Positions 2,729 to 63,852 of a DNA stretch of 64,000 nucleotides are shown one piece after another. Both the position numbers and the translations under genes were made by a program. The stretch comes from Mycobacterium saskatchewanense (lineage in GTDB: Bacteria; Actinomycetota; Actinomycetes; Mycobacteriales; Mycobacteriaceae). Where the stretch lies: assembly GCF_010729105.1 (NCBI RefSeq), contig NZ_AP022573.1, positions 4,030,001 through 4,094,000 on the forward strand, given 5' to 3'. Every line of letters starts with the position of its first letter. The first letter of the stretch is position 1. The notes under the pieces are model-generated. The model saw nothing but the letters and a program-made list of their open reading frames with translations, did not search any database and was not told the DNA's origin.

Positions 2729-4147
2729 TCACTCGACCTTGCTGCCACCCGCCGCCGAGCCGCTCTCCGACTCGCCGACCCACACGGTCTTGGCGTTGAC
2801 GAACGCCCTGATGCCCAGACCCGCGAGTTCGCGCCCATACCCGGATCGCTTGACGCCACCGAAGCCCAATTCGGGATAGGACACGGTCATTCCGTTGATG
2901 AAGACCTGGCCGGCCTCGATGTCGTCGATGAACCGCTGCTGTTCGGCCTCGTCGTTGGTCCAGGCGTTGGAGCCCAGCCCGAAGGTGGTGGCATTGGCGA
3001 TCTCGATGGCCTCGTCGATGCTCTCGGCCCGGTACATCGAGGCGACCGGGCCGAACACCTCTTCGGTGTAGAGCGCCATGTCCTTGGTGATGTCGGTGAC
3101 TACCGTCGGCGGGTAGTACCACCCCGGCCCCCCGATGGGCTTGCCGCCGAGCCGGATGGTGGCGCCCGCCGCGGCGGCGTCGTCGACCTGCTTGGCGATC
3201 TCGTCGCGCCCGGACTCGGTGGCCAGCGGGCCCACGTCGGTGTCCGGGTCGGTCGGGTCGCCCACCTTGAGCGCGGCCATCCGCTCGGTGAACTTGTCCA
3301 CGAATGCGTCGTAGATGTCGGTGTGGATGATGAACCGTTTGGCGGCGATGCACGACTGGCCGTTGTTCTGGGTGCGGGCGGTGACCGCGGTCTTGGCGGC
3401 CTCGTCGAGGTCCGCGGACGGCATCACGATGAACGGGTCGCTGCCGCCGAGCTCGAGCACGGTGGGCTTGATCTCGTCGCCGGCGATGGCGGCCACCGAC
3501 TGCCCGGCCGGTTCACTTCCGGTAAGGGTGGCGGCCGCGACGCGCGGGTCGCGCAGGATGCGCTCGACGGCGCTCGAGGAGACCAGCAGCGTCTGGAAGC
3601 AGCCGTCCGGGAAGCCGCCCCGGGAGATGACGTCGGCGAGATACAGCGCGGACTGCGGGACATTGGAGGCGTGCTTGAGGAGGCCCACGTTGCCGGCCAT
3701 CAGCGCCGGCGCGGCGAACCGGACGGCCTGCCACAGCGGGAAGTTCCACGGCATCACGGCCAGCACCACGCCGAGCGGCTGGTAGCGGGTGTAGGCCTGC
3801 TTCGCGCCGACCGCCGCGGCGTCGGCGGGCTCGTCGGCGAGCAGCTTCTCAGCGTTCTCCGCGTAGTAGCGAAACCCCTTGGCGCACTTGATGACCTCGG
3901 CCTTGGCCGATTTGAGGGTCTTGCCCATTTCCAGGGTCATCATCGCGCCGACCTCGTCGGCCTCGGCTTCCAGCAGGTCGGCGGTGGCGTTCGCCCACTG
4001 CGCACGCTGGGCGAAGGTGGTGTTGTGGCGGTAGTCGAGGAATCGCTCGTAGGCGCGCTCGATCGCCGCGTCGACTTCGGCGTCGGTCGCCGGGGTGAAG
4101 GTTTTGACTGTCTCGCCGGTGGCCGGGTTGATGGTGGCTATAGGCAC
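2729..4147 (-). CDS. gabD1: NADP-dependent succinate-semialdehyde dehydrogenase
   Basis: A 472-residue aldehyde dehydrogenase that oxidises succinic semialdehyde to succinate, the last step of the GABA shunt and of the variant TCA route in mycobacteria. Conserved elements are visible: the oxyanion Asn in PWNFP (near residue 135), general base Glu232 in LELGGSDPF, and catalytic Cys266 in NNGQSC. The sequence closely resembles Rv0234c as recalled. The start is GTG with a GAAGGA site; the stop lies 12 bp from the convergent TetR stop. It is divergent from a ThDP enzyme gene across 190 bp. Confidence 0.95.
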   Translation of the reverse strand: MPIATINPATGETVKTFTPATDAEVDAAIERAYERFLDYRHNTTFAQRAQWANATADLLEAEADEVGAMMTLEMGKTLKSAKAEVIKCAKGFRYYAENAEKLLADEPADAAAVGAKQAYTRYQPLGVVLAVMPWNFPLWQAVRFAAPALMAGNVGLLKHASNVPQSALYLADVISRGGFPDGCFQTLLVSSSAVERILRDPRVAAATLTGSEPAGQSVAAIAGDEIKPTVLELGGSDPFIVMPSADLDEAAKTAVTARTQNNGQSCIAAKRFIIHTDIYDAFVDKFTERMAALKVGDPTDPDTDVGPLATESGRDEIAKQVDDAAAAGATIRLGGKPIGGPGWYYPPTVVTDITKDMALYTEEVFGPVASMYRAESIDEAIEIANATTFGLGSNAWTNDEAEQQRFIDDIEAGQVFINGMTVSYPELGFGGVKRSGYGRELAGLGIRAFVNAKTVWVGESESGSAAGGSKVE

Positions 4148-5984: not shown

Positions 5985-6146
5985 CGGCTCGGCGCCCCGG
6001 CTCGGGGCCGGTGATTGCGCCTCGAATCGTCGGCGTTGCGGCCTCGGTGTGATCCGAAATGGGTTGGCTGAAAGTAATTTTTCGAGTGTGTATCTGGGGC
6101 GATTTGACCGGCGGGTTTTGTCGGGGGTGGGGGTTAGTTTGGCGGT

Positions 6147-52879: not shown

Positions 52880-53464
52880 ATGATCAAGCCGCACAACACC
52901 AACACCGAATTCGAGCTCGGCGGGATCAATCACGTCGCGCTGGTGTGCTCGGACATGGCCCGCACGGTGGACTTCTACACGAACGTCCTCGGCATGCCGC
53001 TGGTGAAATCTCTCGATCTGCCCGGCGGTCGGGGGCAACACTTCTTCTTTGACGCCGGCAACGGCGACTGCGTCGCGTTCTTCTGGTTCGCCGGCGCCCC
53101 CGACCGGGTGCCGGGCGTCTCGTCGCCGGGCGCGATTCCCGGAATCGGGGATATCACGAGTGCGGTGAGCACCATGAACCACCTGGCCTTCCACGTGCCG
53201 GCGGAGAAATTCGACGCCTACCGGCAGCGACTCAAGGACAAGGGCGTGCGGGTGGGGCCGATCCTCAACCACGACGAGAGCCCCATGCAGGTGTCGGCGA
53301 CGGTGCACCCCGGGGTCTACGTGCGCTCGTTCTACTTCCAGGACCCCGACGGCGTAACCCTCGAATTCGCTTGTTGGGTAAAGGAATTCGACAGGACTGA
53401 CACCGGTACGGTGCCGAAGACCGCGGCCGACCGGCGGCCCGCCGTGCCGGTCAGCGGACCATGA
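52880..53464 (+). CDS. VOC-superfamily protein, glyoxalase/extradiol dioxygenase-like (Rv0274 type)
   Basis: A 194-residue vicinal-oxygen-chelate fold protein. Metal ligand candidates: His in INHVALVCSD, His in NHLAFHVP and Glu in LEFACW, the usual H...H...E pattern. It could be a glyoxalase I, a ring-cleavage dioxygenase or an isomerase. Matches Rv0274. ATG at 52880, GGGAG upstream. Divergent from the broken TetR, whose operator-like palindrome lies in its promoter, so it may now be derepressed. Next gene overlaps by 4 bp. Confidence 0.87.
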   Translation: MIKPHNTNTEFELGGINHVALVCSDMARTVDFYTNVLGMPLVKSLDLPGGRGQHFFFDAGNGDCVAFFWFAGAPDRVPGVSSPGAIPGIGDITSAVSTMNHLAFHVPAEKFDAYRQRLKDKGVRVGPILNHDESPMQVSATVHPGVYVRSFYFQDPDGVTLEFACWVKEFDRTDTGTVPKTAADRRPAVPVSGP

Positions 53465-54009
53465 CCGACGGCATTCTTTCCGACGCCCAGATCGCGGCGC
53501 TGACGCCCGGGGAGCGGCGCGATCTGATCGCGCGCCTGGAACAGCCCGTGCACGACGTCGTCGACCCGGTATTTCTGGCGCGGGTCCGGCGCGTCCGGTT
53601 GGGGCTGATGGGCGGCGGCTCGGCCGTGATGATCCCCTGGCTGGGCTACCTCTCCACGACGCTGCCGGAGAATTACGTCGCGCACAATTGGCCGCTGACC
53701 TGGATGGGTTACGACGTGCTGTTGGTGGTCTTCATGGTGGCGACGGCCCTTTTGGGCTACCTGCGCCGTCAGGTATTGATTCCGGCCGCGTTCACCACCG
53801 GGGTCCTACTGATCTGCGACGCGTGGTTCGACCTCATGACAGCCGGCCCCAGGGATGTCTGGTTGTCGGTGGCCACCGCTCTGCTGGTTGAGCTGCCCCT
53901 GGCGGCGTTCATGATCGTCAGCGCGCTGCGGCTCATGCGACTGACCATGGAACGGTTCTGGCTGTTGGATCCCGGAATGCGGCTGTGGGAGCTGCCGCTC
54001 TTGCCGTGA
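53461..54009 (+). CDS. membrane protein, first of a tandem pair
   Basis: A 182-residue protein with four hydrophobic helices (about 47-68, 75-98, 108-126, 135-155) after a soluble helical N-terminus (LTPGERRDLIARLEQPV). It overlaps the VOC enzyme stop as ATGA. No known family recognised. The following gene is a clear paralogue. Confidence 0.7.
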   Translation: MTDGILSDAQIAALTPGERRDLIARLEQPVHDVVDPVFLARVRRVRLGLMGGGSAVMIPWLGYLSTTLPENYVAHNWPLTWMGYDVLLVVFMVATALLGYLRRQVLIPAAFTTGVLLICDAWFDLMTAGPRDVWLSVATALLVELPLAAFMIVSALRLMRLTMERFWLLDPGMRLWELPLLP

Positions 54010-54044
54010 GCGTAGAAATCCGTCCGGTGGGCAAACTGGAATAC

Positions 54045-54590
54045 ATGACCCAAGGCATCCTGACCGACCTGCAGATCGCCGCCCTCACTGCGGAGGAGCG
54101 AAGGGACCTGATCATCCGCCTGGAGCTCCCCGTGAGCGAGGTGGAGGACCCGGAGGTCCTGGTCCGGATGCGGCGGATCAGGCTGGGCCTCATCGCCGGC
54201 GGTTGCGTGGTGATGATCCCGTGGATCGGGTACCTGGCGACGTCGCTGCCCCAGAAGTACGTCGCCCACAACTGGCCGGTGACGTGGATCGGCTTCGACA
54301 TCCTGCTGGTGTCGTTCATGGCGGCGACCGCCATCTTCGGTTATCTGCGCCGCTACCTGCTGCTCCTCACCGGGTTCACCACCGGGGTGCTGATGGTCTG
54401 CGATGTGTGGTTCGACCTCATGACCGCGAAGCCCGAGGACGCCTGGCTGTCGGTGATCACGGGCATGCTGGTCGAGGTCCCGATGGCATTCCTGCTGATC
54501 GGCGGCGCCCTGCGCCTCCTGCGGGTCAGCCTGACGCGCGTGTTGGTCGATCCGGGGCTCCGGCTGTGGCATTTTCCGCTGTTTCCGTAA
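54045..54590 (+). CDS. membrane protein, second of a tandem pair
   Basis: A 181-residue paralogue of the preceding protein, similar over the whole length (ILTDLQIAALTAEERRDLI; IPWIGYLATSLPQKYVAHNW; LICD/MVCDVWFDLMTA segment). The ATG at 54045 aligns with the first copy's start; a GTG at 54006 overlapping the previous stop is an alternative. Its 3' end overlaps the convergent TetR gene by 65 bp, an unusual arrangement. Confidence 0.7.
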   Translation: MTQGILTDLQIAALTAEERRDLIIRLELPVSEVEDPEVLVRMRRIRLGLIAGGCVVMIPWIGYLATSLPQKYVAHNWPVTWIGFDILLVSFMAATAIFGYLRRYLLLLTGFTTGVLMVCDVWFDLMTAKPEDAWLSVITGMLVEVPMAFLLIGGALRLLRVSLTRVLVDPGLRLWHFPLFP

Positions 54591-55238: not shown

Positions 55239-56210
55239 ATGGCAAACCCCGACAGAATCTGGAAACAAGCGTTGCCACATTTCCCGGATGCGCGGGGGAG
55301 GTCATTGCCGGTGCTGCATCAGACGGTCGGCGAACCGATTCCGCACGTCGAGCGCGGCGTCTCCGACCCGCCGCGGCGGGGGCGGCGGCGGCGGGCGGTG
55401 CCTATCGACGAGGCCCTGATGGGCATCAGCCTGCTGGCCGGCCCGGCGAACGTGATCATGCAGTTGGCGCGGCCCGGGGTCGGATACGGCGTGATGGAGA
55501 GCCGGGTCGAGAGCGGCCGGGTGGACCTGCATCCCGTCAAGCGGGCGCGCACCACGTTCACTTATCTGGCGGTGGCCCTGCGCGGCAGCGATTCGCAGAA
55601 GGCCGCCTTCCGGCGCGCCGTGAACCGGGCGCACGCACAGGTGTATTCGCTGCCCGAAAGCCCGGTGCCCTACCACGCATTCGATGTCGACCTGCAGCTG
55701 TGGGTGGGGGCGTGCCTGTATAAGGGCGGCGTCGACATCTACCGCACGTTTCTCGGTGAACTCAGCGACGAGGACGCCGACCGCCATTACCGGGAGGGCA
55801 TGGCGCTGGCCACCACGCTGCAGGTGCCCCCGGAGCGGTGGCCGGCGGACCGCGCCGCCTTCGACCGCTACTGGCAGGAGTCGCTGGCCAAGGTGCGCAT
55901 CGACGACGCCGTTCGCGACTACCTCTATCCCATCGCCGCGTCCCGCATACCCGGGCTCGCCCTGCCGCCCCGGCTGCAGCGCGCCGCCGACAGCCTCCCG
56001 CTGCTGATCACCACAGGTTTCCTGCCGCAGAGGTTTCGCGACGAGATGCGGTTGCCGTGGGACGCCGCGAGGCAGCGTCGCTTTGACCGCCTGGTCACGC
56101 TGTTGCGGGCAGGCAACCGCATGATGCCACGGTCCGTCCGGCAATTCCCGTTCAACGTCCTGCTGGCCGACGTCGACCGCCGGATCAGGACCGGGCGTCC
56201 GCTGGTCTGA
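55239..56210 (+). CDS. DUF2236 oxygenase-like protein (Rv0276 type)
   Basis: A 323-residue all-helical DUF2236 protein, the family that includes the latex-clearing rubber oxygenase Lcp and many uncharacterised mycobacterial oxygenases. Typical family segments: LLAGPANVIMQLARPGVGYGV (about 65-85), RTTFTYLAVALRG, and FDVDLQLWVGACLY. Conserved His/Arg residues may bind haem or metal. Matches Rv0276. It starts 11 bp from the TetR start, sharing its promoter. Confidence 0.82.
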   Translation: MANPDRIWKQALPHFPDARGRSLPVLHQTVGEPIPHVERGVSDPPRRGRRRRAVPIDEALMGISLLAGPANVIMQLARPGVGYGVMESRVESGRVDLHPVKRARTTFTYLAVALRGSDSQKAAFRRAVNRAHAQVYSLPESPVPYHAFDVDLQLWVGACLYKGGVDIYRTFLGELSDEDADRHYREGMALATTLQVPPERWPADRAAFDRYWQESLAKVRIDDAVRDYLYPIAASRIPGLALPPRLQRAADSLPLLITTGFLPQRFRDEMRLPWDAARQRRFDRLVTLLRAGNRMMPRSVRQFPFNVLLADVDRRIRTGRPLV

Positions 56211-56219
56211 GCGGGATCG

Positions 56220-56873
56220 TCAGCAGCAGTGCCTGCCCCGCCACGCCTCGCGTCCTTCGCGCAACGCCACCGCGGCGATGATCAGGGCGACCGCGGGATC
56301 GGCCCACGACCAGCCGAGTAGCGAGTTCAGCAGCAGCCCGACCAGCAGCACCCCGGAAAGGTATGTGCACAAAAGGGTTTGCTTCGAGTCGGCGACCGCG
56401 CTCGCCGAGCCGAGTTCCCGACCGGCGCGCCGCTGTGCGCGCGACAGCACCGGCATGACCACCAACGACAGCGCGGCCAGCCAGATCCCGACCACCGAGT
56501 GTGCGGCCGCCTCAGCGCCCCAGAGCGATCGGACTGATTCCACCGTCACGTAGCCGGCGAGCGCGAAGAACGACACCGCGATCAGCTTGAGGGCGGTGCG
56601 TTCGCGCGCCTCGGGGTCGGCGCCGGAGAATTGCCACGCCACAGCGGTGGCCGACGACACCTCGATCACCGAGTCGAGGCCGAAGCCGATCAGCGCGGTC
56701 GACGACGCCGCCGACCCGGCTCCGATCGCCACCGCCGCCTCTACCACGTTGTAGGAGATCGTCGCCGCGACAAGCATGCGCACGCGCCGCGACAACGCTA
56801 TCCGACGCTGCGTTGCAACGGCTTTCGGGGCGAAATCCCCGCAGCACTCGTCCTTGCATTCCCCCTCAGACAT
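56220..56873 (-). CDS. CDF-type cation transporter
   Basis: A 217-residue membrane protein with about six helices and the GFGLDSVIEVSSA segment that places acidic metal ligands in a helix, as in CDF/TMEM163-like transporters. It has a Cys-rich N-terminus (CKDECC) and ends in RHCC, both good soft-metal ligands. It probably exports Zn, Cd or a similar ion. The ATG at 56873 overlaps the upstream ArsR-type gene by 8 bp, so the two form a sensor-exporter operon. Confidence 0.75.
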   Translation of the reverse strand: MSEGECKDECCGDFAPKAVATQRRIALSRRVRMLVAATISYNVVEAAVAIGAGSAASSTALIGFGLDSVIEVSSATAVAWQFSGADPEARERTALKLIAVSFFALAGYVTVESVRSLWGAEAAAHSVVGIWLAALSLVVMPVLSRAQRRAGRELGSASAVADSKQTLLCTYLSGVLLVGLLLNSLLGWSWADPAVALIIAAVALREGREAWRGRHCC

Positions 56874-57177
56874 TCGGGGCCTCGCAGTCGACGGCGAGCA
56901 CGACCTGAACCAACTCGCCGAGCGCGCGGGCCAGGTGCGGGTCGGCCAACTCGTAGCGCACCTGCCGTCCTTCATAGCGGGCCGCCACCAGTCCGCAGCC
57001 GCGCAGGCACGACAGGTGGTTGGACACGTTGGACCTGGTCAGCCCCAGCCGGGACGCGAGTTGGCCTGGATAGCCCGCGCCGCCGAGCAGCGCCACCAGG
57101 ATTCGGCATCGCGTCGGATCGGCCAGCGCCCGCCCTACCCGGGCCAGCGCCACTTCGTGATCCTCACACGTCAGCAT
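56866..57177 (-). CDS. ArsR-family metal repressor, CmtR-like
   Basis: A 103-residue ArsR/SmtB repressor very similar to CmtR of M. tuberculosis (Cd/Pb sensor, Rv1994c, as recalled). Cys57 and Cys61 in LSCLRGC fall exactly where CmtR binds metal, next to the recognition helix. The third ligand, Cys102 in CmtR, is replaced by Asn; instead there is Cys98 in AVDCEAP. It should repress the overlapping CDF gene and release DNA on metal binding. Divergent from the PPE gene; a Zur-like box lies between. Confidence 0.88.
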   Translation of the reverse strand: MLTCEDHEVALARVGRALADPTRCRILVALLGGAGYPGQLASRLGLTRSNVSNHLSCLRGCGLVAARYEGRQVRYELADPHLARALGELVQVVLAVDCEAPNV

Positions 57178-57225
57178 CCAATGAACAATACAGCTACGGA
57201 TGACCTTTGGACAGCGGGGGAGTTG

Positions 57226-57248
57226 TTAACGATAATCATTTTCAGTAA
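57226..57248. promoter_or_regulatory. Zur box 1, upstream of PPE gene
   Basis: A 23-bp imperfect palindrome with core GATAATCATTTTC centred at 57237, 42 bp before the PPE start. Arms follow the mycobacterial Zur consensus (TGAAAATNATTTTCA) with two mismatches on the left. Two further copies lie at 62313 and 62367. Confidence 0.75.
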
Positions 57249-57290
57249 GCTGATCGACAACACGCCCAGCCCGTCGAGGAGTGTTTGTCG

Positions 57291-59045
57291 ATGACGTCAC
57301 CGATCTGGATGGCCTCGCCGCCCGAGGTGCACTCAGCGCTGCTCAGCAGCGGTCCCGGGCCCGGCCCCCTACTCGCCGCCGCGGGGGCGTGGGATGCGTT
57401 GAGCGCCGAATACGACTCAGTCGCAGCGGAACTCAGCTCCACCCTGGCGGCCGCACAGGCCGGCGCATGGGAGGGGCCGAGCGCGGAGTCGTACGTGGCC
57501 GCGCACGGCCCGTTCCTGGCGTGGCTGACGCAGGCCGGCGCGGCCAGCGCGGAAATGGCGGCAGGTCACCAGACCATGGCCGTGGCTTATACGACGGCGC
57601 TGGCGGCCATGCCGACGTTGCCCGAACTGGCAACCAATCACGTCGTCCATTCAGTGTTGCTCGCCACCAACTTCTTTGGGATCAATACCGTTCCGATCGC
57701 GGTCAACGAGGCCGACTACGTGCGGATGTGGGTTCAGGCCGCCACGACAATGGCGGCCTACCAAGCGGCTTCCAGCGCGACGGCGGCGTCGGCGCCGCAG
57801 GCCGCTCCCGCGCCGCAGATCGTGAAGTCCGGCGCTCAGACCCCAGCTCAGCCGTCGGCGGCGGGCAACCCGCTGCAGGCGGTCGAGCAGTTCCTGCAAA
57901 ACTTCGTGCAGCAGATCCAAAACCTGGGCCAGCAGATCCAGAACTTCAACCCGTTCACGGAGTTCGAGAATGCGGTGAACAACCCGCAGCTCGACGCGTT
58001 CCTCCAGCAATTCGGGATCGGAAACGACGCGGTTGCCCACGACCCGGTGGTCGACAACGCCCTCGACGACTTCATCGCGAACATCCTGCGCAACTTCGGC
58101 TACAACTGGAACCCCGCCGAGGGCACCCTCAACGGGCTCGACTACGACGACTACACCGATCCGACCATGGCGGCCTTCTGGGTCGCGCGATCCCTCGAAC
58201 TCAGCGAGGACTTCCAGCAGTTCTTCGTGTTACTGCAGACGAACCCGGTGGCCGCGATCCAATACCTGGTCAGCCTCGAGCTGTTCGACTGGCCGACCCA
58301 CCTCGCGGAGATCTTCACCCTGACCAGTCAGCCGGCGGCACTGGCGGCGGCGCTCCCCGTGGCCGCCGCGCCGCTTGCGTCGGTCGGCGGCCTGGCGGGC
58401 CTGGCCGGGCTGGCCGCCATACCGCAACCGGTTGTGGCGTCGGCGGTTCCGCTCACCGTGCCCCCCGTGTTGCCCGCCGTCGCGTTAGCCCCGACGCTCA
58501 CGAGCGTGGCCGGGGTTGCCCCGTCGGCGCCGCCGCCCGCGCCCACGCCTTCGGGGCCGCCCGCCCCGGCGGGCCCCGCGCCGACACCGCCGCCCGCGGG
58601 CGCCGGGCCGGCGGCCTTTTTCCCGCCCTATGCGGTGGGGCCTCCGAGTATCGGGTTCGGTTCGGGCATGAGCACGGGTGCCAGCGCCAGCGCGAAAAAG
58701 AAAGCGCCCGAACCGGACATCGCCGCGGTGGCGGCCGCGGCGAGCGCGCGGGAGGCGGCGCGAGCGCGGCGGCGCCAGCGGCAGCGGCAACGCGACTATG
58801 GCAATGAATTCGCGGATATGAACGTCGAGGTCGATCCGGACTGGGCGGCGCCGGACGCTGGGACCCGGGCGTCGGATAGTGGTGCGGGGAACCTGGGCTT
58901 CGCCGGTACTGCGCGCGAGCACGGCGCGGCCGAAGCGGCCGGATTGACCACACTGGCCGCCGACGATCTCGGCGACGGACCGCGGATGCCGATGGTGCCG
59001 GGCACCTGGGATCCACACGCGGCCAAACCCGACAACGAAGCGTGA
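57291..59045 (+). CDS. PPE family protein, PPW subgroup (PPE3-like, Rv0280)
   Basis: A 584-residue PPE protein. N-terminal PPE domain (about 1-180): Pro10-Pro11-Glu12, Trp60-Glu-Gly62 (WxG). The variable middle has a low-complexity [15 protein letters not shown] region, then an Ala/Pro-rich linker and a basic tract ([12 protein letters not shown]). The C-terminus carries LGFAGT and PMVPGTW, the signature of the PPE-PPW subgroup. Exported by a type VII system (likely ESX-3 class). No pe partner lies beside it. GAGGAG precedes the ATG at 57291. A Zur-box upstream indicates zinc control. Confidence 0.9.
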
Positions 59046-59178
59046 CGGCCGCAGAAGTCAGGTCGGCAGCGCCCCGGCCGGTGCGGTTGGCCAGGCCGCC
59101 GGAAGCCGGACACCGACGGGCACACCTCGCGCCGCCGGCGGAGCGTCCAGGCGACGACGTTCGGCAACGGCCGCGCCC

Positions 59179-60162
59179 ATGAGGTCCCTGCCCCGACTGC
59201 GCGTCGGGTCGATGGGGTTGCTGGTAACTGCGCTGCTTGCATGCGCTTTCGCGGCGCCGATGCTGCGCGACGCGGTCTTCGGCAGTGCGGCGTTGTCCAC
59301 GGCGGGAACGGTGTTCTGTGGCGTGTTCGTCCAGGCGGTTCCGTTCCTGGTGCTCGGTGTCCTGGTCAGCGGCTTGATCGCGGTGTTCGTGTCACCGGTG
59401 CGGTTGGCGTGCCTACTGCCCCGTCGTCAGACGCTGGCGGTGATGGTCGCCGGTGTGGCCGGGGCGGCATTGCCCGGCTGTGAATGCGGTTCCGTCCCGG
59501 TGGCCCGGCGGTTGTTCGGCGAGGGCGGGGCCACGGGCGCGGCCGCGTTGACGTTTATGCTGGCCGCCCCGGCGATCAACCCGGTGGTTATGGTGGCCAC
59601 CGCCGTCGCGTTCCCGGACGCACCCGCGATGGTTCTTGCGCGAATGGGTGCCTCGTTGCTGACCGCGTCGATCATCGGCTGGGCGTGGTCACGGTGGGGC
59701 CGTCCGGAGTGGATCACCCGGCGGTTGCCCGCATCCGCGCATCGGCCCGAATCGCGCTGGGTGTTGTTCGCCGAGGCGGCGCGGCACGACTTTCTGCAGG
59801 CAGCTCCGTATTTGGTGGTGGGTGCCGCCGCGGCCGCAGCGCTGCATGTCCTGGTGCCGCAGCGGGTGTTCGCGTATCTGGCGGGGGACGTCGCCCTCGG
59901 TGTGCTGACAATGGCCGCGTTGGCGGTGGTACTGGCGTTGTGTTCGGAGGCCGATGCCTTCGTGGCGGCGAGCATGACGATGGTGCCGCTCCTACCGCGG
60001 CTCGTGTTTCTCGTCGTCGGTCCGGCGGTCGACGTGAAACTGTTCGCCATGCAAGCGGGGATGTTCGGGCGCGCCTTCGCAACCCGGTTCGCCCCCTGCA
60101 CCTTCGTCGTTGCGGTCGCGTGTGCGTGCGCGGTCGGATTTCTCGTTCTCGGCGGTGCGTGA
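59179..60162 (+). CDS. permease of the DUF318 (UPF0718/YcgR-like) family
   Basis: A 327-residue membrane protein with about eight helices. Two family motifs are visible: PGCECGSVPVARRL (about 98-111), with two cysteines in a membrane-flanking turn, and LCSEADAFVAASM (about 254-266). Such permeases pair with a TIGR03943 subunit; the B. subtilis pair is zinc-linked, so a metal substrate is plausible. Stop overlaps the next start as TGATG. Lies 133 bp after the PPE gene and may share its Zur-controlled promoter. Confidence 0.82.
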   Translation: MRSLPRLRVGSMGLLVTALLACAFAAPMLRDAVFGSAALSTAGTVFCGVFVQAVPFLVLGVLVSGLIAVFVSPVRLACLLPRRQTLAVMVAGVAGAALPGCECGSVPVARRLFGEGGATGAAALTFMLAAPAINPVVMVATAVAFPDAPAMVLARMGASLLTASIIGWAWSRWGRPEWITRRLPASAHRPESRWVLFAEAARHDFLQAAPYLVVGAAAAAALHVLVPQRVFAYLAGDVALGVLTMAALAVVLALCSEADAFVAASMTMVPLLPRLVFLVVGPAVDVKLFAMQAGMFGRAFATRFAPCTFVVAVACACAVGFLVLGGA

Positions 60163-60887
60163 TGAGCCGCGAAACCGAGAACACCGTCCTGCTGTTGGTC
60201 GGCGTCGGCCTCGTGATGATCGGGTGGTCGGGCGAGTTCACCCGGTACGTCAATCCCGGATTGCTGCCGTGGTTGATCGCGTCCGCGGTGCTGCTCATCG
60301 CCCTGGCGCTATGCGTGGTCGTCGACGACATCCGCAGAGGTGGGCCGAGGGCCAGTGCTGCGGCCGACCAGCACGGGCAAGCGCATTCACACACGGCCGG
60401 CATCGTGTGGCTGCTTGTCGTGCCGATCGTGCTCCTGTGTTTCGTGCCCCCTCCGGTGCTGCGGCCCTCCGCCGCCGCCCCGGTCGTGACATCAATACCG
60501 GCTAGGGGGCATGCATTCCCGCCGCTGCCCTCCGGAAGGGCCCCCGATGTATCTCTGCCGGAGGTGCTCATGCGCGAAGCGCAGGACACCACAGGTTCGC
60601 TCACGAATCGGCCGATCACCGTGACCGGGTTTGTCCTCAACGAGGCGCGAGGGGTAGACCTTGGCCGCATCGTCATCATTTGTTGCTCGGCGGACGCGCA
60701 GTTGGCGCGCATCCATCTGGGTGGGCCTGCCGCCGGCGAGGCGGCCGGACTCCCGGACGACACCTGGTTGCGCGTGGAAGGCAGAGTCCCACCGCGCCAA
60801 CCGAATTCCGCCCGAACGCCGACGCTGCAGGCGACCGCGGTCACCCGCATCGACACCCCCGCCAATCCCTACGCCTACCCACATTAG
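60162..60887 (+). CDS. TIGR03943 family permease subunit (YcgQ-like)
   Basis: A 241-residue protein: two N-terminal helices (about 8-24 and 33-52), a His-containing loop HGQAHSHTAG, another helix (about 81-96), and a C-terminal beta-rich extracytoplasmic domain with RIVIICCSADAQLARIHL. The layout is that of the TIGR03943 partner of DUF318 permeases. Translationally coupled to that gene. Confidence 0.82.
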   Translation: MSRETENTVLLLVGVGLVMIGWSGEFTRYVNPGLLPWLIASAVLLIALALCVVVDDIRRGGPRASAAADQHGQAHSHTAGIVWLLVVPIVLLCFVPPPVLRPSAAAPVVTSIPARGHAFPPLPSGRAPDVSLPEVLMREAQDTTGSLTNRPITVTGFVLNEARGVDLGRIVIICCSADAQLARIHLGGPAAGEAAGLPDDTWLRVEGRVPPRQPNSARTPTLQATAVTRIDTPANPYAYPH

Positions 60888-60895
60888 AGGGCCTG

Positions 60896-61285
60896 TCAGT
60901 TGCTTTGACGGTTCTCGTCAGTCCAAATCCGATGCCTGGTGAGACGCGTTGGGATGGGGGAGTTTTCCCATTGCCCGAGCTCCAGCCAATCGCGAAGGGC
61001 CGCTGCCTGGCCGTAGTCGGCGATGGGACCGATCCAGTGCGGTTGCCCGCGGGCGGCTCGGTCGCCCGTGCAGGGCTGAACCAGGGCCATCACGCCGCGC
61101 CCAGTGGGGCGAGACGCACAGGTGAGTGGTCCCAGAAGGCATGCGGCCGCCACGAGCATGCCGTGCGGGCAACGCCGGATGGTTGGGCGCAGTTCGTCGA
61201 TGATCGAGAGATCGCCTTCCGCACTGCACGCGGTACACACGATGACGGTGAACGGCCGGTCGGTGCCTCGGTGTCGGTCGGTCAT
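60896..61285 (-). CDS. Cys-rich 129-aa protein ending the alternative ribosomal-protein operon, Mrf candidate
   Basis: A 129-residue protein with six Cys: CTAC at 17-20, Cys39, Cys49, Cys56 and Cys72, a pattern close to thioredoxin-like [2Fe-2S] or zinc-binding proteins. It lies 40 bp after rpsR2, as the last gene of the operon. In M. smegmatis a protein called Mrf (mycobacterial protein Y recruitment factor) is, as I recall, encoded in this operon and links zinc depletion to ribosome hibernation; this is the best candidate for it here. AGGAAA lies upstream of the ATG. It converges on the TIGR03943 gene, 8 bp away. Confidence 0.65.
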   Translation of the reverse strand: MTDRHRGTDRPFTVIVCTACSAEGDLSIIDELRPTIRRCPHGMLVAAACLLGPLTCASRPTGRGVMALVQPCTGDRAARGQPHWIGPIADYGQAAALRDWLELGQWENSPIPTRLTRHRIWTDENRQSN

Positions 61286-61325
61286 CTCCGTTTCCTCGTA
61301 TCAGTATGCGACACGGATTTTTTCA

Positions 61326-61583
61326 TTAACCGGTGGCTCGTCCCGGATACGGCAGAAGTGCCATCTCGCGGGCATTCTTGATGGCCATTGCCACCTGTCG
61401 TTGCTGCTGGACACTCAGACCGGTGACGTGGCGGGAGCGGATCTTGCCGCGGTCGGAGAGGAACACGCGCAGCGTGGCGGTGTCCTTGTAGTCGACCGCG
61501 CTGAGCCCGAGGCCGGCGAGCAGGTTCTTCTTGGGGGACTTGGTGTTCGGCGTGCGTCGCGGGCGCGGAGGCTTCTTCGCCAT
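61326..61583 (-). CDS. rpsR2: alternative 30S ribosomal protein S18, cysteine-free
   Basis: An 85-residue S18 that replaces the zinc-binding copy on ribosomes made during zinc shortage. It has no Cys (the usual N-terminal CxxC is missing) and keeps the S18 core ([44 protein letters not shown]). ATG at 61583 overlaps the rpsN2 stop by 1 base (TGATG); the GTG three bases earlier is an alternative. Part of the Zur-type C-minus operon. Confidence 0.95.
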
Positions 61584-61888
61584 CACCAGCTGGCCTTCCG
61601 GACACCGGGGAGCTGGCCGGCATGGGCCATTTCGCGCACGCGGACCCTCGACAAGCCGAACTTGCGTAGGTGCCCGCGCGGACGTCCGTCGACGGCATCG
61701 CGGTTGCGCAGCCGGACCGCGCTGGCGTCGCGGGGTTGGCGCGACAACTCGCGTTGCGCCGCCTCCCGTTGCCCGGCAGTGCTGGACGGCGAGCGGATGA
61801 TCTCTTTGAGTTCGGCGCGGCGGGTGGCGTAGCGCGCCACGACCGCGCGACGCCGGTCGTTCTTGACGATCTTGGATTTCTTGGCCAC
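61583..61888 (-). CDS. rpsN2: alternative 30S ribosomal protein S14, cysteine-free
   Basis: A 101-residue S14 of the long, zinc-independent type ([14 protein letters not shown] start; [20 protein letters not shown] end), with no CxxC pairs. It replaces the Zn-ribbon S14 when zinc is low. Two bases after rpmG; coupled to rpsR2. Confidence 0.96.
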
Positions 61889-61890
61889 GT

Positions 61891-62055
61891 TCAGCGCTCC
61901 TCTCGGAAGTCGACGTGCCCGCGGATCACCGGGTCGTATTTGCGCAGCACCAGCCGGTCGGGGTCATTTCGCCGGTTCTTTCGGGTCACGTAGGTGTAGC
62001 CGGTGCCCGCCGTGGAGCGCAGTTTCACCAACGGGCGGATGTCGTTGCGCGCCAT
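61891..62055 (-). CDS. rpmG1: alternative 50S ribosomal protein L33, cysteine-free
   Basis: A 54-residue L33 ([30 protein letters not shown]) without the four cysteines of the zinc form. Start overlaps the rpmB2 stop as TGATG. Same size as the mycobacterial C-minus L33 (Rv2057c). Confidence 0.95.
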
Positions 62056-62291
62056 CAGATTCGCTGTCCTTGCTGGCGCAACCGGGCCACGACGGCCTCG
62101 ATGCCGTCGCGATCGATGACCTTGATCCCTTTGGTGCTGACCCGCAGCCGGATGCGTCGGTCTTCCGATGGCAGGTAATAGGTCTTCAGCTGAATGTTGG
62201 GTGACCAGCGCCGCCGGGAGCGGCGATGGGAATGCGACACGGTGTGACCGAATCCCGGAGTCCGGCCGGTCACCTGGCAGTGGGCGGACAT
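62055..62291 (-). CDS. rpmB2: alternative 50S ribosomal protein L28
   Basis: A 78-residue L28 ([20 protein letters not shown]), almost identical in pattern to Rv2058c. Only one Cys (Cys5) remains, so the four-Cys zinc site is absent. First gene of the C-minus ribosomal operon; its start is 21 bp after Zur box 2. A start 18 bp further upstream is possible but unsupported. Confidence 0.95.
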
Positions 62292-62312
62292 TACGCACCT
62301 CCATGACAAAGC

Positions 62313-62335
62313 TTATTGAAAATCATTTTCGACAA
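62313..62335. promoter_or_regulatory. Zur box 2, upstream of rpmB2 operon
   Basis: TTGAAAATCATTTTCGA core, centred at 62324, 21 bp before the rpmB2 start on the minus strand. A close match to the mycobacterial Zur consensus. With box 3 it forms a divergent control region. Confidence 0.85.
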
Positions 62336-62366
62336 GGCCTGAGGAAGACGGTACCGTACAAGGGTC

Positions 62367-62389
62367 GAGATGAAAATGATTTTCAGTAA
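62367..62389. promoter_or_regulatory. Zur box 3, upstream of the G3E-family gene
   Basis: TGAAAATGATTTTCA is a perfect palindrome around 62378, touching the AAGGAG ribosome site and ending 10 bp before the start codon at 62399. The operator therefore overlaps the very end of the leader. It is 54 bp centre to centre from box 2. Confidence 0.88.
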
Positions 62390-62398
62390 GGAGCGCTG

Positions 62399-63598
62399 AT
62401 GCGGACGCCTGTGATCCTGGTCGCCGGCCAACACGACACGGATGCCGTCGTGGGCGCGCTGCTGGGCGCACCGGGAACCTTGGTCGTCGAGCATCGTTTC
62501 GACGGTCACGTGGTGCGCCGCACCACGGCGATGCTGCAACACGGCGTCTTGACCACCGCCGAGGCCGGGCTCGAACTGGCACACGGCTGCGTGTCCTGCA
62601 CCATCCGCAACGACCTGCTCCTGCTGTTGCGCCAACTTCATCGCCGGCCCGATGTCGACCGGATCGTGGTGCACCTGGCGCCGTGGCTCGAACCCGAACC
62701 GCTCTGCGTGGCAATCGACCACGTCCGGTTGCGCGTGGCGCCGGAGTACGTCGACGGGCCGGCGGCCCTGGACGTCGCGGTCGCCGCGGTGGTCACCTGT
62801 GTCGATTCGTCGGTGTGGTTGACCCAGGCGCTCGGAGACGCCGAGCTCGACGACGGGCGCACCGTGGCGCAGGTGGTGGTCGGACAAGCCGAATTCGCCG
62901 ACGTGATCGTGCTCAACCAGGCCGAGCCCGTCACGGCCGCCGCATTGCGCCGCCTCTCGCCGCGCGCGCGGATTCAGGTGGGCGCCAACGGCATCGGGGC
63001 TGCGGTGAACAATCTGTACCGCGACGCGCGGCGAGGCCGTAGCGACGATCCGTTCGGTCCGCTGCTGGCCGGGCAGCCACCGCTCAACGCCCGCGGAGCG
63101 ATCAAGCTGGTCGAATTCAACGCCCGGCGCCCCTTTCATCCGCAGCGTCTGCACGAGTGCCTCGATGTGCTGCTCGACGGCGTACTGCGTACCCGTGGCC
63201 GGCTATGGCTGGCCGGCCGGCCCGACCACGCGATGTGGCTGGAGTCGGCCGGTGCTGGCCTGCGGGTCAGTTCGGCCGGCAGGTGGCTCGCCGCCCTCTC
63301 GCCGCCCGAGCTGGCCGGCGTCGACCCGGAGCGACGCGCGTTTGCCGAGCTGGAATGGGACGCCATCCACGGCGACCGGCACACGTCGATGACCATCCTG
63401 GTGTGCGGCGCCGACGTTACCGAGATCGTCGACGCCCTGCGCGGCGCACTTCTCACCGACGACGAGTTGGACGGCCCGGCCCGGACTCCCTACGACGATC
63501 CATTCGGCGACTGGCACGACGACCCCCGTGCCGAGCCGGCGCAGCCTGCCCAGGAAAATGCCGCCCCTGCTAACCACAGACCCGAAGGAGATCGCTGA
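62399..63598 (+). CDS. COG0523/G3E-family (CobW-like) protein lacking a P-loop (Rv0106 type)
   Basis: A 399-residue protein similar to Rv0106, a Zur-regulated member of the COG0523 metallochaperone family. The C-terminal CobW_C domain is clear ([39 protein letters not shown]) and the metal-motif remnant GCVSC is kept at about residue 63-67. However, where COG0523 GTPases have the Walker A loop (GxxGxGKT), this protein reads [15 protein letters not shown], with no Gly-Lys-Thr/Ser. GTP hydrolysis of the usual kind is therefore doubtful. The stop overlaps the L31 start (TGATG). Zur box 3 is directly upstream. Confidence 0.85.
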
Positions 63599-63852
63599 TG
63601 AAGCCCGGCATCCACCCCGACTACCACCCGATCGTCTTCCAGGACGCCACGACCGGAGCGACGTTCCTGACCCGTTCCACCCTCACCAGCTCGCGCACCA
63701 TCGACTGGGAGACGGCGGCCGGAGTGCGCACCTACCCCCTCGTCGTCGTCGAAGTCACGTCGGATTCACACCCCTTCTGGACCGGTAGCCGCCGGATCGT
63801 CGACAGCGCGGGCCAGGTGGAGAAGTTCCGCCGCCGCTACGGCGGTCGCTGA
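63598..63852 (+). CDS. rpmE2: 50S ribosomal protein L31 type B, cysteine-free
   Basis: An 84-residue L31 type B ([35 protein letters not shown]), lacking the CxxC pairs of the zinc form. It takes the place of L31 type A under zinc limitation. Coupled by a 1-base overlap to the G3E gene. Confidence 0.94.

Follow-up and report, generated by a model that had tools for sequence, protein, structure and literature searches.

Do the genes packed between positions 57226 and 63852 of a 64-kb stretch of Mycobacterium saskatchewanense DNA (herein the window) belong to one zinc-starvation island, and how far does it reach? Their order is PPE-PPW, permease pair, alternative ribosomal protein (altRP) genes, MRF, and L31B, with three Zur-type boxes (Table 1). 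By analogy with relatives, we judge it highly probable (roughly 0.9) that this segment belongs to a zinc-starvation island under Zur repression, like the one described in M. avium subsp. paratuberculosis (MAP). The island continues beyond the window with a Fur-like gene and an ABC zinc transporter (znuACB), followed downstream by a type VII system.

Genes and Zur-type boxes of the locus

A first-pass annotation had proposed that a PPE-PPW gene, a permease pair, four alternative ribosomal proteins, a COG0523-family protein, L31B, and a Cys-rich gene are clustered here, and every one of them was found where it had been placed. The two permease subunits are present as matches to ArsP_1 (PF03773) and TIGR03943/DUF1980. 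The COG0523-family/G3E protein could be defined more exactly as MRF, which scores above the NF047431 cut-off. In an alignment of seven, MRF has a conserved GC-x-x-C motif, an LVAGQ-like N terminus, and no GK[ST] Walker A motif; the account of Rv0106 in PMC2770081 likewise gives a CXXC motif without Walker A, and on these two grounds the idea of MRF as an active GTPase was dropped. According to a review covering M. smegmatis and M. tuberculosis (PMC13418864), MRF is the factor that brings Mpy to zinc-free ribosomes.

S14, S18, L28, and L33 are paralogs without the zinc-binding Cys set; the genome’s other copies, compared for S18, S14, and L28, have three, four, and four Cys, respectively. The claim that all four proteins are Cys-free holds for S18, S14, and L33 and fails for L28, which has one Cys.

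The window was searched for the palindrome TGAAAATNATTTTCA with up to three mismatches allowed and 100 shuffles as a control. This gave five matches vs. a mean of 0.06 per shuffle, so a chance origin of the boxes was dropped. Matches with zero to two mismatches are the three island boxes; the remaining two (at 6069 and 33707) have three mismatches. A Zur matrix built from 19 published MAP boxes (reporting threshold, 8 bits) finds only the island boxes in the window, at 36.7 to 39.4 bits; five windows simulated with matching dinucleotide composition score 11.9 bits at best. Across the 6.0-Mb genome, six sites have up to two mismatches to the palindrome; three lie in the island and a fourth is 7.5 kb farther along, where it precedes an eccA gene. 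Boxes are found before PPE, at altRP/MRF, and ahead of the type VII system (ESX-3), as expected for a MAP-type island. Both searches bear out the three near-identical Zur-type palindromes of the first-pass annotation, and its view of the locus as a zinc-starvation gene cluster stands, the boxes being of the kind shown in relatives to answer zinc starvation.

We infer Zur repression in M. saskatchewanense, the response to zinc, and all gene functions from relatives. When zinc is plentiful, Zn-loaded Zur would sit on the boxes and shut three putative transcription units: PPE with the permease pair, L28-L33-S14-S18 with a five-cysteine gene, and MRF with L31B. As zinc falls, Zur would be released and zinc-free ribosomal proteins would take the place of zinc-binding ones; MRF, once zinc-free, would recruit the hibernation factor Mpy.

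Table 1. Features of the locus and its upstream neighbors (window coordinates)
Feature	Position	Strand	Basis and remarks
CDF-family cation exporter	56220..56873	-	PF01545, 44.7 bits; start chosen by eye; a neighbor, not conserved with the island
CmtR-type ArsR repressor	56866..57177	-	PF01022; best PDB match Rv1994c (2jsc), 170.9 bits
Zur-type box 1	57227..57250 (also given as 57230)		38.6 bits; 2 mismatches to palindrome; in 113-bp cmtR-PPE space
PPE protein, PPW subfamily	57291..59045	+	PF00823, 207.6 bits; PF18878, 69.6 bits
ArsP_1/DUF318 membrane permease (YcgR-like)	59179..60162	+	PF03773, 146.8 bits
TIGR03943/DUF1980 permease subunit (YcgQ-like)	60162..60887	+	TIGR03943, 177.8 bits (cut-off 88.8)
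Five-cysteine 129-aa protein (working label CysF)	60896..61285	-	Last gene of altRP operon; no Pfam/NCBIfam family
Alternative ribosomal protein S18	61326..61586	-	TIGR00165; no Cys
Alternative ribosomal protein S14	61583..61888	-	NF006477; no Cys
Alternative ribosomal protein L33	61891..62055	-	TIGR01023; no Cys
Alternative ribosomal protein L28	62055..62291	-	TIGR00009; one Cys
Zur-type box 2	62314..62337 (also given as 62317)		39.4 bits; 1 mismatch; between divergent L28 and MRF genes
Zur-type box 3	62368..62391 (also given as 62371)		36.7 bits; exact palindrome; same 107-bp L28-MRF space
MRF, COG0523-like ribosome-hibernation recruitment factor	62399..63598	+	NF047431, 538.7 bits (cut-off 375)
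Type B ribosomal protein L31 (L31B)	63598..63852	+	NF002462, 122 bits (cut-off 86); no Cys

Conservation of the core and its limits

The comparison of gene order in relatives that the first-pass annotation had suggested was run on 80 named MRF loci from other mycobacteria. In 13 of the 80 loci the full core order is kept (PPE, the permease pair, altRP genes, MRF, and L31B), and eight of these extend to eccA3. This compact zinc cluster core is common to several other mycobacteria and is not exclusive to MAP. The clustering in MAP has been called exclusive to that organism and tied to its gut tropism (PMC4298942); given its presence in these 13 loci, the core alone cannot explain the gut tropism of this cattle gut pathogen.

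The genes might also have come together without joint function, as independent Zur targets gathered near ESX-3 by drift or transfer with no operational gain. This explanation, less probable but a serious competitor, fits the scattered parts of the system in M. tuberculosis (PMC4298942, PMC13418864) and the make-up of the neighborhood, which differs widely among the 80 loci. Zur boxes lie within 400 bp upstream of MRF at every locus (two boxes in 68, one in 12), L31B adjoins MRF in 53, and at least one altRP gene stands beside MRF on the opposite strand in 78, with all four present in 56. The retention of the divergent altRP-MRF pair with its shared boxes, together with the longer order in 13 loci, argues against a gathering without joint function.

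Upstream of PPE, the next genes encode CmtR, CDF, and an oxygenase. It had been suggested that metal exit through CmtR and CDF is controlled jointly with metal entry and ribosomal zinc sparing; one metal-balance unit would then place the exporter under common control with uptake and ribosome remodeling, with Zur perhaps acting both ways from the 113-bp cmtR-PPE space. The layout is compatible with this, as a single Zur box separates CDF and CmtR from the divergent PPE gene both here and at loci L061 and L071. Among the 59 named loci whose upstream sequence spans 7.5 kb or more, however, only 2 have both genes upstream, and in the subset of 10 with PPE and the permease pair the count is 2. Moreover, M. 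tuberculosis CmtR (Rv1994c) is a Cd/Pb sensor acting at its own operator. With the pair in 2 of 59 loci and a CmtR as the best match, joint control is not supported; a metal-balance unit is very improbable, and CmtR/CDF were dropped from the island.

The permease pair and the five-cysteine protein

Within the zinc-starvation island, PPE and the permease probably carry metal or a metal ligand across the envelope; a role as importer, as the term “metal permease” would have it, is putative. The best NCBIfam matches of the ArsP_1 protein are efflux families, SO_0444 and SaoE, both far under their cut-offs (66 of 300 and 45 of 325 bits), and these would suit an exporter of metal or ligand. Export is nonetheless somewhat unlikely: a Zur-repressed zinc exporter would worsen starvation, and MAP3766, the MAP gene in the same place, is induced by zinc chelation according to PMC4298942. 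Among the 62 loci having 6 kb of upstream sequence, the permease pair is linked to MRF in 15 and PPE plus the pair in 10; among the matches listed, 34 of 70 genomes have TIGR03943 within 20 kb of an MRF/COG0523 match. The pair is therefore often located elsewhere. Zur regulation of Bacillus subtilis ycgRQ was not borne out: PMC5584981 places these genes under ECF sigma factors, and “ycg” is absent from the main text of PMC5007448. In the open-licence literature, a paper found for the permease family in a zinc context has DUF1980 as a protein of unknown function.

The Cys-rich last gene of the altRP operon was confirmed, and its product belongs to a conserved, unnamed family of its own, in which C17, C20, C49, C56, and C72 are invariant in 52 sequences. 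A Zur box lies within 1.5 kb of the gene in 28 of 30 loci of the genus, the present one included, vs. 7 of 96 control stretches; the loci without a box are L030 (full flanks) and L021 (short). The gene very likely belongs to the Zur regulon. It was found in 34 of 148 sampled genomes of the genus and MRF (above cut-off) in 86, so the remodeling response can dispense with it. Mycolicibacterium litorale and M. sphagni (loci L117 and L131) are examples of saprophytic laboratory species in which it adjoins S18.

Searches of Pfam, NCBIfam, and PDB sequences gave no match or family for the protein. DUF1636 genes also accompany COG0523 genes, and DUF1636 (PF07845) was tried as its home and rejected: the family model hit no member of the 22 searched, at E values up to 1. 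PF07845 had no match in 21 relatives, where the controls gave none either, and a scan of 296 genomes from the phylum gave seven weak matches, none above the cut-off. A thioredoxin-like 2Fe-2S ferredoxin was considered as well: one source names a single family member (P0074) “(2Fe-2S) ferredoxin domain-containing”. No description of the protein turned up among the open-licence papers listed. The product may be a small thiol protein that either bears an Fe-S cluster or takes care of zinc next to a COG0523 partner. A bolder proposal, which we hold to be rather unlikely, is that it is an undescribed component of the actinobacterial response to zinc starvation. It would be a thiol protein made together with Cys-poor ribosomal proteins, would either take up the zinc freed by ribosomal protein replacement or bear an Fe-S cluster, and would act in concert with MRF or a different COG0523 protein. 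The gene poses a paradox, since a Cys-rich protein would be made exactly during zinc shortage. The altRP operon, described as having four genes, has a conserved extra one in many species, and this gene would make it testable whether zinc from old ribosomes is handed on.

Comparison with known zinc-responsive loci

The island is not new, because genes in the same order, induced by a zinc chelator, have already been published for MAP (PMC4298942). As described there, the MAP zinc-responsive genomic island (ZnGI) comprises MAP3725-MAP3788, with the LSP14 genes (MAP3725-3764c) upstream of PPE. The shared order is PPE (MAP3765), permease (3766), S18-S14-L33 (3767c-3769c), an MRF-like CobW (3770), and L31 (3771); a Fur-like gene and an ABC transporter (3773c-3776c) and ESX-3 (3778-3788) follow, and the present island matches these by gene content. 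The boxes agree in place too, lying ahead of PPE, in the space separating the ribosomal genes from MRF, and ahead of ESX-3. TPEN induction reported for MAP is 24-fold for MAP3765, 6.8-fold for MAP3766, and >180-fold for each of MAP3768c-3771; the S18 gene MAP3767c rose 22-fold but with a q-value of 1.0 (PMC4298942).

The M. saskatchewanense island differs in having L28, which is missing from the MAP list in PMC4298942, and a five-cysteine gene after S18; no CobW gene was seen between its L31B and the Fur-like gene, and CmtR/CDF lie upstream where MAP has pks2. A weak box (23.1 bits) was found at its znuA, whereas the account in PMC4298942 sees no Zur control of 3773c-3776c.

The M. smegmatis zinc cluster (MSMEG_6045-6071) resembles the present island in S18-S14-L33-L28, MRF, L31B, and zinc transporters nearby. 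It is TPEN-induced, with increases of 280- to 1233-fold listed for MSMEG_6065-6070, and Zur motifs are predicted for six of the named genes (PMC7174638). The main text of that report names no PPE; in its place it lists a porin (MspD) and further transporters. In M. tuberculosis, altRP, MRF, and ESX-3 genes are likewise reported as zinc-responsive, but they are spread over distinct loci, Rv2055c-2058c, Rv0106 (MRF), and ESX-3 (PMC4298942, PMC13418864), in agreement with the first-pass annotation, which had placed the M. tuberculosis counterparts elsewhere.

Gene order and predicted Zur-type boxes

The window spans positions 4030001-4094000 of a 6.0-Mb genome assembled as one contig. It carries a series of genes in alternating orientation near its right end, and the closest named relatives by MRF, the COG0523-like ribosome-hibernation recruitment factor, are Mycobacterium. 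The table lists the series and its continuation. The island probably comprises three transcription units, judging by gaps of -1, 2, -4 and 40 bases along the minus-strand genes from L28 to the Cys-rich gene and by the 1-base overlap of MRF with L31B.

Gene series of the island and its continuation past the window (L016, a fetched stretch of the same chromosome)
Features	Location	Strand	Remark
CDF exporter, then CmtR-type repressor	from 56.2 kb	-	left end of series
PPE-PPW, ArsP_1 permease, TIGR03943 permease subunit	rightward of cmtR	+	
L28, L33, S14, S18, 129-residue Cys-rich protein (order read from right)	rightward of permease pair	-	
MRF, L31B	right end of series	+	
znuA-znuC-znuB, Fur-family gene at series end	L016 609-3781 (chromosome 4094108-4097280)	-	just past window
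Methyltransferase, second PPE-PPW gene, exact box, eccA and eccB	L016, after the Fur-family/znu series		

The COG0523-family gene recognized in the first-pass annotation passes the curated MRF cut-off (538.7 versus 375 bits). That annotation's four cysteine-free ribosomal proteins hold for L33, S14 and S18, which, like L31B, have no cysteine, but not for L28, which has one; second copies elsewhere in the genome have three (S18), four (S14) and four (L28).

Allowing up to 3 mismatches, the palindrome TGAAAATNATTTTCA matches the window five times, against a mean of 0.06 per shuffle (n = 100); the two matches outside the island have 3 mismatches each. Scored with a matrix derived from the 19 boxes reported for M. 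avium subsp. paratuberculosis (MAP; PMC4298942), the only sites in the window to reach 8 bits are the three of the island (38.6, 39.4 and 36.7 bits); the best score in five simulated windows was 11.9 bits. The three palindromes are borne out, and the first-pass reading of a zinc-starvation island is right in outline; the island is real, well above chance and largely published already. Across the whole 6.0-Mb genome, six sites have at most 2 mismatches: the island's three, a fourth before eccA, 7.5 kb beyond them, one at 3098421 preceding what by eye is a znuA ORF, and another at 2486426 (position 3427 of the fetched stretch L017; 2 mismatches) preceding an ORF that starts PPE-like by eye.

A Cys-rich gene recurrent in zinc-starvation loci

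The last gene of the alternative ribosomal protein (altRP) operon matches no family in Pfam or NCBIfam and no PDB sequence. C17, C20, C49, C56 and C72, as well as Q70, G86 and W100, are invariant in 52 aligned members. We infer that the product may be a thiol protein that either carries an Fe-S cluster or handles zinc.

Within the genus, this five-cysteine gene occurs in 34 of 148 genomes (two matches weak), and in at least 27 of the 34 a listed MRF/COG0523 match lies no more than 20 kb away. Across the order it is found in at least 25 of 298 genomes, 13 in the genus and 12 outside (weakest E 2.4e-4), a lower count since 15 candidates per genome were scored. Boxes were sought at 30 of the 35 genus matches, the window's own included: a box of at least 20 bits lies within 1.5 kb of the gene in 28, compared with 7 of the 96 control stretches (3.3 kb each, from the outer parts of 48 long MRF-identified loci). 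These controls border zinc islands yet come from other genomes than the 30 loci. The gene follows an altRP gene on the same strand in 19 of these 30 loci, and in 11 of the 30 a box lies no more than 300 bp upstream of the match.

A scan with the MRF alignment, one genome per species, gave 115 relatives, from which the best 80 loci were taken; a single M. interjectum strain supplied two. The five-cysteine gene is present in 41 of these 80, and 34 of the 77 with enough sequence have it on the altRP strand no more than 3.5 kb from MRF. Outside the genus, the mycobacterial matrix places a box within 1.5 kb in 4 of 12 loci. Wider stretches for nine of the 12 have COG0523, L31B or altRP genes nearby in seven (L167, L169, L170, L171, L172, L178 and L179); L168 has a box and none of these genes, and L181 has neither. 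Among eight wider genus stretches, the scan of one with a weak match (L180) found nothing, the five-cysteine gene included. The box, altRP and MRF/COG0523 neighborhoods therefore identify the five-cysteine gene as a recurrent gene of zinc-starvation loci.

Flanks of the island

The proposal that CmtR and the CDF exporter form one unit with the island is weak, since both lie upstream in only 2 of the 59 loci with at least 7.5 kb of upstream sequence (from the best 80 of 115), and in 2 of the 10 among these that have PPE and permease genes. With a sole intervening space of 113 bp (57178-57290), one box inside, Zur might touch the cmtR-CDF promoter as well as that of the PPE gene. An MpaB/Lcp-type oxygenase gene (55239-56210) lies directly upstream of the CDF gene. 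Farther left, adjacent membrane-type proteins (53461-54009 and 53985-54590) are alike by eye, as if duplicated in tandem; no Pfam family matches the first.

Past the window, the start of znuA has a weaker predicted box (23.1 bits), and two other proteins of the genome are related to the Fur-family protein (38% and 25% identity). We take the eccA/eccB type VII system to be ESX-3, the system that MAP has at the same place.

Spread of the island core and comparison with MAP

At least 13 of the best 80 loci from the 115 relatives combine the PPE gene and permease pair with L31B and three or more altRP genes, and in at least 8 of the 80 this core reaches eccA3 inside the fetched stretch, among them M. 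interjectum, M. terramassiliense and M. colombiense; both are lower counts because many contigs end early. The core, without the LSP14 part known from MAP, is therefore common to several species, which we take to be slow growers. One M. attenuatum locus (L110) has two MRF-type genes and two alternative S18 genes within 21 kb, along with YcgRQ (the permease pair), ZnuAC and the five-cysteine gene, in rearranged order.

The MAP island has the same gene series. PMC4298942 lists MAP3765 (PPE), 3766 (permease), 3767c-3769c (S18-S14-L33), 3770 (CobW-like), 3771 (L31), 3772c (CobW-like), 3773c-3776c (Fur-like and ABC transporter) and 3778-3788 (ESX-3), the series being raised by the zinc chelator TPEN, with a q-value of 1.0 for S18; its boxes precede the PPE gene and ESX-3 and also lie between MRF and the ribosomal genes. 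Since that list holds the same series, the window's island is a further case of the published one. In MAP the znu/Fur position is occupied by LSP15, described there as MAP-specific (PMC4298942). That MRF lacks a Walker A motif is not new either; PMC2770081 already states it for Rv0106. The MAP study, which compared M. tuberculosis, M. smegmatis, MAA, BCG, M. marinum, M. leprae and M. vanbaalenii, calls the clustering exclusive to MAP (PMC4298942); to this published picture are added the occurrence of the island core in further species and an additional gene of the altRP operon.
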